Origin: Trichomonas tenax
Lineage: Eukaryota; Parabasalia; Trichomonadida; Trichomonadidae
Reading direction: 5' to 3'
Assembly: GCA_023091735.1 (NCBI GenBank)
Contig: JALKBU010000679.1
Location: forward strand, 1 to 28,078
Length of the DNA: 28,078 nucleotides
Position 1 is the stretch's first letter; the number at the start of each line of letters is the position of its first letter. Below the pieces are notes generated by a model that saw nothing but the letters and a program-made list of their open reading frames with translations, searched no databases and was not told where the DNA came from. A program made the translations under genes and the position numbers. Below are positions 12,319-28,078 of this stretch, piece by piece.

Positions 12319-12639
12319 AGGGCCTGGCTTGGCCACTCAAGGGCTTTGGAAGTCTCAGGCCGATCTCGCCATGCATCGAATCATGCTTCTTTTGAATAGG
12401 CATCTGGATGCATCTCTGCTAGATCACCAGGTCATCCTTCACTATGAGGCCACAGCCACTCATAATGAAGTATTCTTTGGCTTCCAACATTGAGTTCAAT
12501 CCATTTCAACCGATTGATACTTTTCCATTTTTTCCCGCGGAACACGTCACTTTCCTTTATTTTGACATCCTGACTTTACATGTCAAAATAAGTTACATGT
12601 CAGAAAAGCACGTTGTTCTATTTTGTCCCAGTCCCTCAA
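12319..12639 (+). repeat. Dispersed ~300-bp repeat, copy 2
   Basis: Direct-orientation partner of 1-303. Compared with copy 1 it carries an extra ~18 bp around 12586-12603, created by local duplication of TTACATGTCA. The left boundary (AGGGCCTGG) coincides with the window start in copy 1. The right boundary is just after GTCCCAGTCCCTC. A frame from about 12465 (KYSLASNIEFNPFQPIDTF) parallels that in copy 1, with several silent changes. A kinase gene lies downstream of both copies, but the sequences between differ. Confidence 0.75.
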
Positions 12640-13228
12640 AAAAACTAAAACCGTTTTATTCAAAAATCGCATTGAAAATTTTGAGAGCATCGCATAAAAT
12701 AATTGATTACAAAAGCTCAAAAACCAAAATGTCCGAGAAAGATAACATAATTATTTCTATGTTCTGAATTTGGTGAGAAAAACGTGCTTTTTGCTTATCT
12801 TTACAATTTTTTTAATAAATAAGCCATAATATTCGTATATCAGCCATATTTTGTCTCTAAACGAACTTTTGAGAATAAATGTACTGATGCGTCAGTGTCT
12901 TAACGTACAGTAAATTTTATTTTTGAATAAAAATAAGACCATTTAATTAGTAATAGTATGTACATTATATATACGAAATAATGGAAACGAAATCGTATCA
13001 CGAAAACTAGTGTGAGAAAATCTATGCAAAGCCAACAAACGCTTGCACTCGGGCTACATATGCATATATTTGAATATAAGGATTTTTCCTGTATATAGCA
13101 AAATTATGAAATTTCGTAACACCCTAAAAGACTCTTTTTTAAGCATTAGATGATTTTCTATTCATCTCTGAGACCAACAACCACGCTTAGCGAGCATTTT
13201 GAAATCGTTTAATAAATTTGATCATTTT
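12640..13228. other. Intergenic, AT-rich
   Basis: Non-coding sequence between the repeat and the small doubtful frame before the kinase. No repeat or stable stem-loop of note was seen. Confidence 0.4.
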
Positions 13229-15408: not shown

Positions 15409-15498
15409 TTTGCTCTTCTCTGTAATTCCTGGTGCTGCGTGCAGCTGTACCTCATTCTATAGTTGCACGCGGCACAAGAGACCCCAGAGAAGAGCAAA
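15409..15498. ncRNA. 90-nt microRNA-precursor-like stem-loop
   Basis: The outer stem TTTGCTCTTCTCTG (15409-15422) pairs perfectly with 15485-15498 (14 bp). A symmetric 9/9 internal loop follows. The inner stem GTGCTGCGTGCAGCT (15432-15446) then pairs with AGTTGCACGCGGCAC (15461-15475), 15 bp including two G-T wobbles, closed by a 14-nt loop. A total of 29 pairs in 90 nt is far beyond chance for one locus and GC-richer than its setting. The strand of transcription is unknown. It might instead be a DNA-level palindrome from a mobile element. RNA function is inferred. Confidence 0.5.
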
Positions 15499-24124: not shown

Positions 24125-24427
24125 ATATTACTTTTTCAGAACAAAAATGTTTCGAATATTTTGTTAAAATATCATATATAGTCCCCTCGAATGCAAGCTT
24201 AGGTCATGCGAAGGATAACTGTCGTTTGGATTTTGATATTTGATATATAATATATATTTGCAAAAATATTATTTCTTTTTTCATGAGTTCTTTGCGTGCT
24301 TATGCTATATCTATTAAAAATGATGTTGTTTTCCTAATATTGACGAAGTGAGGAAATTTCTGAAATATTGCAAAAATTCAAAATTTATGAGCACAACATC
24401 AGCATCGAAAATGAGGGTACAATTTTT
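24125..24427. other. 3' flank of the RRM gene
   Basis: AT-rich non-coding sequence that leads into the stem-loop pair at 24428-24594. No gene seen. Confidence 0.4.
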
Positions 24428-24492
24428 CTTGCCAGAACGTCCGGACGGTTATTTTACATCGATATTGAATTGAAAATGATCGTTCTGGCAAG
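24428..24492. ncRNA. 65-nt stem-loop (CTTGCCAGAACG arms)
   Basis: CTTGCCAGAACG (24428-24439) and CGTTCTGGCAAG (24481-24492) are perfect 12-bp complements. An inner AT stem (ATTTT with AAAAT) is possible across an uneven bulge. An outer GCATC (24402-24406) could pair with GATGC (24507-24511). Function unknown; grouped with the other stem-loops by size and setting. Confidence 0.45.
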
Positions 24493-24553
24493 GTCTAAAG
24501 TATGGGGATGCCGACGATTATTTTTAAACGTAAGTTCATTGTAACTTGCTACA

Positions 24554-24594
24554 CCATCATTTTCTGCGGTAGTTTACCTAACATAAAATGATGG
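24554..24594. ncRNA. 41-nt stem-loop (CCATCATTTT arms)
   Basis: CCATCATTTT (24554-24563) and AAAATGATGG (24585-24594) are perfect complements with a 21-nt loop, 61 nt after the previous stem-loop. GAAAATGAT also occurs in the previous stem-loop and in stem-loop A at 26751, so the words may be related. Confidence 0.4.
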
Positions 24595-26742
24595 ACAGTA
24601 ACTTTGCAGTCATCCTGCATACACTGCATGCAGCAGTTTCACACATCACATTCCACTAATAAGATATCTTCGAAAAAAAGTAGTTTGAGCACAAAATTCA
24701 ATCTAAACTATAACGCACGCATTATCGAATAGCAAATGCACAAGTAAATATGAAACAATGTTCGAATAATAATATTTCGAAATTTCGAAAACCTGCATTT
24801 ACACAGTATGAGTACAATGTTATTCATTACTGGCTTGTGTTTAGCCAAGGTGAAACATTTGTTCAATATCATACTCGATGTTTAATATCAAAAATTGATA
24901 AACGTACACTCTTTTTGGCCCTAAAGTTCAGTTCTCTATCTTATTCGGCATGCATGTGTATGCCATCGAAAAATAATATACTTTTCTGCAGTTATTCCTC
25001 ATTTTTAATATGCTGCGAGATCTGAAGTTTGTCTATAAGCAATTTTAATCATTTAACATGCATTTCTTAGTTTTGCCTTACCTTGCTTTTGTCTCTTTTG
25101 TATAAATAAAGCATTATTATCGATAATTTTTTATATCAAATATTTTCAATATTCACAAATACAGTTGTAAATGCTATTGGCATACATGAGTGATTACTTC
25201 TGTAAATCTGTGGTGTATACAAGTCATAAAACTATACAAAATTATAAATGAATGAGTAAAACTTAATATATTCTTATTTTATTGGCATGCATGCTTTATA
25301 ATATTCTTATATGTGTTGTGTAGCATGCAATTAATTGAGTCTAATATGTATATAAATATAAAATTTGCATTATTCAAGAATGTATGTGAATAGTTTCATA
25401 AATCAATCATACATAAATTTATTATGAAATCTTTAATGTGTTTTGTGATAATATTGAACTTTATGAGAAAAAAGAATTTTAATTGCGCTGAATATTTGAT
25501 AACAAGTGTGCGCCTAGTAAGTATTATGGTTTAGTGATTGCATATATTAGTGTAATACTATAATATATTGTTTATTAGAAGTGTATTAATGAAAATTGAA
25601 ATCAACTTTTTTCAAATTCAATATCCTCGTTTATTTGATAATGTGTCTGGTGTTAGAATATGATTTTATGTAGATTTTGTGATTGTAATGAGTCTTTTTT
25701 CAAAAATTAGTGGAATCAAAATGTGATTAATGATTTTTATGTGTGATATTGTATATGTTTCACTTCATAACTATTTCTCATGATATTACAATGACTGTAT
25801 ATAAATTTCAAGCCTAAATACTCTTTCTATCACTGTAAAATGTGCATTCTTTGTGATTGAAGAGTGACGGTGATGTGCACGTTAATCCTGATTTTTTCGC
25901 CGATTAATTGGGATTTAACTGAGACTTATATGACATAATGTATCATCAAACATGTGATCCACACTGTACTTTATACTAAATGAATAGAATACTGTTTATT
26001 GATTCTGTACAACGTCAAAAACACGTCCTTAAGCAAACAAAAGAAATATAGACATTCTGTATGTTGAAGATGTTATACTGTGTCCACTGAGCATTCAAAT
26101 AATAGGCAATGCAATTTTGTGTATTTCTATTGATATATAAATAAATCTTGATTATGTTTGGTATAGATTATTTACTACTCATATATATTCTTTCTGTGCA
26201 GATCAATCCATCAGAAACGGTGTAAATAACAAAACTTTTTATGATAAATATTTTTGATCGTGTAAAGTAATTTTGTCAAAATGTCAAAAATGCAAAATTG
26301 TGTTTTCAGTATATGTTCATATTTTAATAGATGCTTCCAATTCAACAAACGAAAAATTAGTCATTTTTATTAAGTTTTTTAAAATAGTTATTTCCATATT
26401 AATGTTATACATCATATTGTGTAGTGCGTTATTCATGCATGCACGCTGTATATTGTCTTTTTACTACTAAAAATGGAAAAAATTTTATTCAATATTATAA
26501 AACTTATTTAAAAAGACTATAAACAATTGTCTTCCATTCCATATTATTCTTCTATGTATGTAAAAGGATAAAATGGATTGAAACATAGATGTTTCTGTCA
26601 AAATAAGGCGAAATCACGTGATTCGGTCATTTTTCAGAGAATTTAAAGCTTGCAGTATCTCTGTTGATTATTTATTCATATTCAAATCAATAAAATGCTG
26701 CAAAGTAGCTTAGAAAGCATATATTATAATCCAAAGCATCAA
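24595..26742. other. Long AT-rich region before the hairpin cluster
   Basis: About 2.1 kb without a credible gene. Open frames here are short and hydrophobic. If the six stem-loops downstream are transcribed as one RNA from the plus strand, its promoter should lie in the right part of this region. I see no GTCACTTTT there. Confidence 0.4.
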
Positions 26743-26836
26743 ATATCATTGAAAATGATGGACTTATTGGCCGCATCATCTAGAACATCAATGTGTTCCA
26801 GAAAATGGCCAATAAGCGCGTCATTTTCAATGGTGT
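26743..26836. ncRNA. Stem-loop A of the hairpin cluster
   Basis: Arms 26743-26772 and 26807-26836 (30 nt each) pair along their whole length with two mismatches and three G-T wobbles. The lower stem is ATATCATTGAAAATGA with TCATTTTCAATGGTGT. The upper stem is CTTATTGGCC with GGCCAATAAG. An inner stem TCTAGAACA with TGTTCCAGA (one mismatch) closes most of the loop. The lower stem is homologous to that of stem-loop B. Confidence 0.55.
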
Positions 26837-26960
26837 TCGATCTTGAAATACATCAACACTATATTTCCTTTGATATGGTAAGCATCCAATAATTGTATAC
26901 TTTTGATGTGATCTTCGTGTTTATTAGTGCCTGAAGTCGATAATTTATCCAAAAATATAA

Positions 26961-27054
26961 ATACCATCAAAAATGAATAATTTAAAGCATGAATTCTCCA
27001 GAACAGCTAATTTCCGGAGAATTCGTGCTAGAAATTGATCATTTTTGATGGTGT
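26961..27054. ncRNA. Stem-loop B of the hairpin cluster
   Basis: Arms 26961-26999 and 27016-27054 (39 nt each) have a 16-nt loop. The lower stem ATACCATCAAAAATGA pairs with TCATTTTTGATGGTGT over 16 bp. The middle is AT-rich with three mismatches. The top GAATTCTCC pairs with GGAGAATTC over 9 bp. It differs from stem-loop A in the lower stem by substitutions that keep pairing. Confidence 0.55.
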
Positions 27055-27084
27055 TTAAAAACGAATAATTATGAATCGCAGATT

Positions 27085-27159
27085 GCTTTAGTTATCTCAT
27101 AGCATGACGAACCGATGTGCATACCCTATCTGTTTGTCATGCTATGAGACAACTAAAGC
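27085..27159. ncRNA. Stem-loop C of the hairpin cluster
   Basis: Arms 27085-27112 and 27132-27159 (28 nt each) have one mismatch, one G-T wobble and a 19-nt loop. The core is TCTCATAGCATGAC with GTCATGCTATGAGA, followed by the outer stem GCTTTAGTT with AACTAAAGC. The size and near-perfect pairing are typical of precursor hairpins. Confidence 0.55.
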
Positions 27160-27199
27160 GAGTAATGTAAATCGATAAAATGAAGTACTTGATACATAG

Positions 27200-27270
27200 C
27201 ATTTCCTACGACTATCTGAGGTTTCCACATCACTTTATAACCTATAAACCTCAGATAGTCGTAGAAAATG
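27200..27270. ncRNA. Stem-loop D of the hairpin cluster
   Basis: Arms 27200-27224 and 27246-27270 (25 nt each) have one C/A mismatch and a 21-nt loop. The core is CTACGACTATCTGAGGTTT paired with its exact complement (27246-27264). It is the most regular member of the group. Confidence 0.55.
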
Positions 27271-27320
27271 TAGATTTGTAAAAGATGGTCGAATATGTTA
27301 GATTCATGTGAATCTCGAAA

Positions 27321-27390
27321 GCACCAACAGTCAACAAACCATCATGTGCGAACAAATGCTTTGGATTTGTAGTTTATCGACTGTTGATGC
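27321..27390. ncRNA. Stem-loop E of the hairpin cluster
   Basis: Arms 27321-27341 and 27370-27390 (21 nt each) have four A/C-type mismatches. The best part is CAACAGTC with GACTGTTG, and the loop is 28 nt. It is the weakest of the six; its place in an evenly spaced series supports it. Confidence 0.45.
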
Positions 27391-27433
27391 GTTGAATGCA
27401 ATGAAATTGCAAAAAAAATCGAAGAACTAGGAA

Positions 27434-27537
27434 AACATTGAATGGTAGACCACTAGATTTTCACTGGATAGAGGGGCTTATGTACTGATAGACCTTATAA
27501 GCAGTGAAAAACTAGTGGAAAAGACGTGAACAATGTT
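27434..27537. ncRNA. Stem-loop F of the hairpin cluster
   Basis: The main stem is CCACTAGATTTTCACTG (27450-27466) with 27502-27518, 17 nt and one mismatch. An outer stem AACATTG (27434-27440) with CAATGTT (27531-27537) lies beyond a 9/12 internal loop. An inner stem CTTAT/ATAAG is possible. The layered layout resembles a primary microRNA hairpin. Confidence 0.5.
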
Positions 27538-27818
27538 GTATCGTGCACTTTTTCACATTTCAAATAAATTACTTATTTTGAATTGCTACATAATCTAGAT
27601 TCTATTTTGCTATTTTAATTTCTTACTCTGTTCATTTTGAAATTTTGTTCAAACAATTTTCTAACAATTTTGATAAAATTATGTTAAAATGCAAAATATA
27701 TCTCAATTATGACAAATATTTACGATTTAGAATCGACAATTAGAAGCTAAATTAGTTGCATCTGCATATGGAATAACTTTATAAAGTTATAAAACTTAAA
27801 TCAATGAAAGATATTGGA
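27538..27818. other. AT-rich spacer
   Basis: Nothing recognisable between the hairpin cluster and the 85-bp repeat. Confidence 0.4.
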
Positions 27819-27903
27819 AGATATTGTCGTGACTTGGCATTGATGATATGCACGTAAGCTTTGTAAGAATTCGTGTTATTGGATTGCATAGAATGAAAAC
27901 ATT
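27819..27903 (+). repeat. 85-bp dispersed repeat, copy 2
   Basis: Direct partner of 15094-15178, differing at two positions (A/G in CGTAAGCTTTG, C/T in TTCGTGTT). Flanks are unrelated. It lies 281 bp beyond stem-loop F. Confidence 0.9.
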
Positions 27904-28078
27904 AATATACCCAGTTTCACAATACTTTAGCCATTCCCCCAGCCTTTGGGCGTTTACATGTCATATTGTCAGATTCATTTTTTAATGGATGGTTCAACGC
28001 TGTTTACCCCAAACTCATATGTAAACTGCTAGCTGAGGCTTTTCCGCATGAATTAACGCATACCATGCAATACATGAG
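27904..28078. other. Unassigned, base composition unlike the spacer
   Basis: The last 175 bp are richer in C and G than the preceding spacer (for example CCATTCCCCCAGCCTTTGGG) and may be the edge of a gene or mobile element that continues outside the window. No frame is open throughout on either strand. Confidence 0.3.

Follow-up and report, generated by a model that had tools for sequence, protein, structure and literature searches.

Clusters of polycistronic microRNAs or hairpin RNAs consist of several hairpins of 70-104 nt arranged in tandem. Helitrons carry a hairpin near one end, occur as one-ended copies and, to our knowledge, make no target-site duplications. The MULEs of Trichomonas vaginalis (TvMULE1-4) encode a transposase and, in the accessible part of their description, are 2.4-3.0 kb long (three lengths are given), with imperfect short terminal repeats and AT-rich target-site duplications of 10-14 bp as printed (PMC2725143). 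Tm1 of root-knot nematodes is a Mutator/foldback family with non-coding members, composite inverted ends and Mutator-size duplications of 9 bp, in which some members carry an internal hairpin motif, according to the sections of the source at hand (PMC3169594).

Here we describe a repeated element from Trichomonas tenax that carries an array of six hairpins, starting from one window, the whole 28,078-nucleotide stretch of DNA analyzed. The array resembles polycistronic microRNA clusters in its tandem hairpins of that size but lies in a dispersed repeat, with a transcript that is putative only and no agreed RNA strand. The element shares a hairpin near an end and one-ended copies with Helitrons but differs from them in having two two-ended copies with duplications of 10-11 bp, which rules out a Helitron. 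Its length of about 3 kb, its ends and its AT-rich duplications, whose 10 and 11 bp are among the printed lengths, are like those of TvMULE1-4; unlike the TvMULEs, which encode transposase, the copies and lineages examined hold no coding frame, and terminal hairpins and a hairpin array set the element further apart, a comparison made by description and not by sequence, within the accessible part of the source (PMC2725143). It is also like Tm1 in its non-coding copies, composite inverted ends and Mutator-size duplications; where Tm1-HH, as described in the sections at hand, has one histone-type hairpin, six different stems covary here over 14 lineages (PMC3169594). Our literature search, with subscription papers and Repbase outside its scope, turned up no DNA transposon described as carrying hairpins that covary as an array.

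Six hairpins fold better than shuffled sequence

An earlier note on this DNA had reported six inverted repeats following one another in gene-free DNA. All six are real (Table 1). An inverted-repeat search of the window mechanically recovered five of them at the places given in that note, hairpin 5 (27321-27390) being the one absent from the listing, and no ATG-started open reading frame of at least 80 aa overlaps the cluster. The comparison of folding with shuffled sequence was strongly in favor of hairpins 1-4 and 6 on both strands (z from -6.1 to -14.1), with none of 200 shuffles as good. Hairpin 5 also folds better than its shuffles, weakly on the + strand (z -2.33, 4 of 200 shuffles as good) and more clearly on the - strand (z -5.02, 0 of 200). 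The loop sizes reported earlier hold roughly, with slight differences; the arms of hairpin 2 are separated by a gap of 8 nt.

Across the whole window, arms of at least 25 nt separated by no more than 100 nt were listed only at the hairpin cluster and at 15409-15498. The latter is an extra hairpin outside the element, with 41-nt arms that are 78% complementary and 8 nt between them.

Table 1. Coordinates of the hairpins and of the surrounding element in the window (z, folding against shuffled sequence).
Feature	Position	Strand	Description
Element copy, subfamily A	24415..27784	+	Left end, one arm with the array, 240-bp central segment
Left terminal sequence	24415..24493	+	Subterminal hairpin CTTGCCAGAACG ... 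CGTTCTGGCAAG; boundary near 24415 in L012, L015 and L017, with different flanks
Hairpin 1	26738..26841		35-nt arms, 83% complementary; z -9.2; covariation
Hairpin 2	26958..27057		46-nt arms, 85% complementary; z -14.1; covariation
Hairpin 3	27085..27159		32-nt arms, 91% complementary; z -11.8; covariation
Hairpin 4	27200..27270		25-nt arms, 96% complementary; z -10.8; covariation
Hairpin 5	27315..27396		Weakest in the window copy; z -2.3 on +, -5.0 on -; covariation
Hairpin 6	27434..27537		Paired core 27450-27518; 29-nt arms, 79% complementary; z -6.1; covariation
240-bp segment	27544..27784		Right of hairpin 6; either orientation among copies

The array recurs throughout the genome

We searched the window's own genome (53.4 Mb in 1528 contigs) with the 795-base cluster and found the whole or partial array at no fewer than 40 places, the window's own included. 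Most of these (34 of 40) span at least 720 of the 795 bases; nine, counting the window's copy, reach 91-100% identity, and the other 25 lie at 72-78%. Queries with the cores of other subfamilies brought in at least 9, 9 and 8 further places, bringing the number of places with a whole or partial array to at least 66 (40+9+9+8), which is a lower bound. Sequence from the left parts of the element recurs widely too, in part without the hairpin core. The six hairpins are one unit within a dispersed repeated element. The earlier note had seen in them the layout of a polycistronic hairpin RNA and not copies of one foldback element, and had named genome-wide recurrence as an observation that would speak against this; a host locus of that kind is not supported, because the array does recur across the genome as a mobile-element-like repeat.

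Another repeat family begins beside the element (27817-28078), of which about 170 bp (27907-28078) recur at 94-97% in many places. Two open reading frames at 147-401 and 12444-12767 encode a near-identical peptide (SLASNIEFNPFQPIDTFPFFP...HVTFLYFDILTLHV) and probably belong to yet another repeat. The window also encodes a Ras-like protein with 93% identity to one database protein, 77% to one of T. vaginalis G3 and 53% to one of Tritrichomonas foetus, as expected of a trichomonad on the Trichomonas side.

Ends, duplications and arms of the element

Copies of the repeat, which is about 3 kb long and ends in terminal hairpins, have the array as their shared core. Subfamily A copies share homology from about 24415 to about 27784, and their flanks differ. 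No right end of the element was seen within the window. L012 also ends on its right side, in a short inverted form, and shows no clean duplication with both ends present. Subfamily C ends in GAGGAGAAG followed by the hairpin ACAAACTATACC...GGTATAGTTTGT, again with flanks unrelated between copies. The first 21 bases of this end occur at 55 sites with at most one mismatch, compared with 0 for the reversed control.

This subfamily C end, 44 bp long, is found on both sides in L022 (C710) and L044 (C1505), and end motifs face each other in C1178, C52 and C869. The target-site duplication is CATTTTTAAAA (11 bp) in L022 and TTGAAAAATT (10 bp) in L044, the same 10-mer being found once more inside the L044 locus. 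Duplications of about 9-11 bp and terminal inverted repeats at both ends are the marks of a Mutator-like element, and these two copies have both. Of 17 left-ended copies tested, only these 2 have both a second end and a duplication within the stretch examined; in the remaining 15, that stretch holds no right end, and the left end is not accompanied by a duplication of at least 9 bp. Because the end motif of L040 (C1313) sits just beyond the stretch examined, some left-ended copies may still have a right end.

The segment to the right of hairpin 6 is flanked in other copies by the short inverted repeats GTGCACTTTTTCACAT / ATGTGAAAAAGTGCA. Within subfamily A, it is forward in the window, L012, L013 and L037 and inverted in L009, L010, L011 and L018; only a 35-nt inverted piece is left in L015, and L014, L016 and L017 lack it. 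Both orientations occur in subfamily C as well. Opposed arms are seen at C532, C1178 and L013, while most copies examined have only one arm in the stretch examined. The simplest ancestral form would be an arm, the central segment and an inverted arm, one arm having since been lost in most copies.

In the 9 of 14 lineages examined, no stop-free stretch of the core exceeds 104 aa, and in three element copies none exceeds 103 aa; we reject a coding origin. The genome holds 11 matches to the MULE transposase domain (PF10551). Nine loci representing six of these matches, with flanks of 1-4 kb, lack the ends of both A and C (the ends of other lineages fall outside this comparison), so that no transposase gene with ends matching the element was found among the six. 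None of the 55 subfamily C end motifs lies on the 11 contigs with PF10551 matches. An 18-nt match of hairpin 4 in a viral collection is put down to chance: the contig concerned has phage-like genes, and element queries matched it over no more than 19 nt.

The six stems covary between lineages

Of 60 core copies (the window plus 39 and 20 loci), we used 53 for the lineage analysis; L017, L023, L027, L037, L042, L064 and L065 were too short. The 53 copies form 14 lineages that differ from one another by about 25%, and the eight multi-copy lineages have internal mean distances of 6-9%. Between the 14 lineages, Watson-Crick pairs fill 1886 of 2326 cells (0.811, compared with 0.774 when shuffled), extra pair types number 49 (25.6 shuffled) and two-sided changes 545 (196 shuffled), none of the three being matched in 1000 shuffles. 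These shuffles assume equal relatedness among lineages, which is roughly true here. Slid registers give no excess (at least 84 of 1000 shuffles as high). For each single hairpin, no more than 8 of 1000 shuffles matched the two-sided measure; extra pair types show no excess over shuffles for hairpin 5 alone (121 of 1000). Five multi-copy lineages alone give 70 two-sided changes compared with 25.5 (0 of 1000), and with a separate tool applied to one raw copy per lineage (n=14) each of the five measures stands at 0 of 500. As a set, all six stems covary across the 14 lineages.

A stricter G-test with tree-simulated null alignments, using 51 of the 53 copies, left none of the 305,371 column pairs significant; its stem-only version found 1 of 180 stem pairs. 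Single pairs are thus not proven; the joint signal is.

Stems are also more alike between lineages (0.80) than spacers (0.73) and loops (0.69). The two largest lineages, with 17 and 10 copies, show no covariation beyond that of shuffles when each is taken by itself (877 and 748 of 1000 as high), and their stems and spacers are equally alike; individual resident copies there give no sign of constraint. Free decay is not apparent in a third lineage, of six copies, where stems stand at 0.90 and spacers at 0.87. The conservation of pairing among relatives that a microRNA cluster should show is seen between lineages, by compensatory change, but not within the two largest lineages, whose copies decay without keeping their pairs. 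Active elements seem to retain the pairing, and dead copies to lose it.

A block without hairpins (26142-26737) adjoins the array and is conserved nearly as well or better. Its likeness between subfamilies A and C is 0.72-0.73 compared with 0.73-0.75 for the array (four copies), and between A and B 0.83 compared with 0.78 (one copy).

A likely transposon that probably keeps its arms paired

The recurrence, the terminal hairpin ends, the 10-11 bp duplications, the opposed arms and the segment found in both orientations fit a transposon. We consider it likely that the dispersed element is a non-autonomous DNA transposon of Mutator-like/foldback type, with the six hairpins as one arm unit whose pairing active copies probably keep for propagation. 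Because the arms covary between lineages and not within the two largest, the pairing probably serves the spread of the element and not a host microRNA gene, and its retention in the active line together with its loss in resident copies is as expected for a structure of use to the element. The element would be moved by a Mutator-type transposase acting in trans, folded arms would be needed when it propagates, and the covariation would reflect selection on the active element and not arm-to-arm copying during transposition. As to where the fold acts, we lean, tentatively, toward single-stranded or extruded element DNA over RNA.

Several results count against the transposon reading. Transposase sites do not usually sit about 2.3 kb from an element end, which is the distance between the hairpins and the left end. 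The outcome with tree-simulated nulls, the extra pair types of hairpin 5 and the six-copy lineage with stems more alike than spacers weigh in the same direction, as do the duplications seen in only 2 of 17 copies, the second occurrence of the L044 10-mer, the lack of a clean duplication in L012, the missing A and C ends at the nine MULE loci compared and the conserved block without hairpins.

Alternative explanations

The array could instead encode hairpin RNA for the element, an arm transcript folding into six precursors as supply or sponge for machinery of Dicer/Piwi type, which we regard as possible but doubtful. The hairpins are of precursor size (71-104 nt) and fold strongly, and their pairing is preserved by covariation. 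The Argonaute- and Dicer-like proteins that the earlier note ascribed to trichomonads have counterparts here: a single Piwi-domain match lies in an open frame of 838 aa (G000:C599:10152-11027), and one frame of 832 aa holds two RNase III domains (G000:C203:8967-9791). Since both genes exist, a small-RNA role for the array is possible.

RNA made from one strand should show an excess of G.U over A.C departures in all six hairpins. In hairpins 2, 4, 5 and 6, AC departures exceed GT, as expected of G.U in - strand RNA, but hairpin 3 leans the opposite way (GT 47, AC 25) and hairpin 1 is even. Overall the counts are GT 120 and AC 153 across the 14 lineages (p 0.053) and 32 and 45 in five multi-copy lineages (p 0.17), both p values ignoring shared descent; single hairpins fall below 0.05 only for 2, 3 and 6, likewise uncorrected. 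The wobble counts therefore give no single agreed RNA strand for the six hairpins. Transcription of a two-armed element in both senses would mask a one-strand bias and so weaken this test. A search of the window against Rfam at gathering scores gave no match, which also speaks against RNA. In T. vaginalis, small RNAs of about 34 nt with a 5' U bias come from repeats, which favors the RNA reading, but in the accessible part of the report they map to both repeat strands and are likened to piRNAs, which does not (PMC7845603). The fuller version of this idea, in which a selfish element brings along an RNA array of six hairpins that targets host Dicer/Piwi as a decoy or small-RNA source and is kept by compensatory evolution through at least 14 lineages, we consider unlikely.

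Pairing might also be upheld by mutation without any function, if snap-back synthesis on the other arm restored complementarity during copying or repair. In L013 (1608-2106), a 109-nt inverted tail matches the copy's own arm with 99% complementarity, whereas divergence among copies of that lineage is about 6%; this tail may well be a footprint of such synthesis. Covariation that exists between lineages and is absent from resident copies of the two largest fits as well. However, copying between arms alone should not slow the divergence of stems below that of spacers, as is seen between lineages, and lineage majorities retain fixed mismatches; we judge this explanation improbable.

A polycistronic microRNA-like gene of the host, the earlier view, has the hairpin layout, the folding and the presence of silencing genes in its favor, but a microRNA cluster should not derive from a genome-wide repeat, and the recurrence of all or part of the array at no fewer than 66 genomic places largely refutes it. 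The decaying copies, the mobile-element-like ends and the lack of an agreed G.U strand also count against it, and we regard it as very unlikely.

Implications

Hairpin clusters in repeat-rich protist genomes can mimic microRNA clusters, and the present array is a reason for caution in reading them. Non-autonomous DNA transposons are usually thought to require their ends only. Here, an internal array of six different stems is kept paired between lineages by compensatory changes while copies in the two largest lineages decay freely, which suggests a structure used by the element itself. The small-RNA pathway of this group of parasites is still poorly known.
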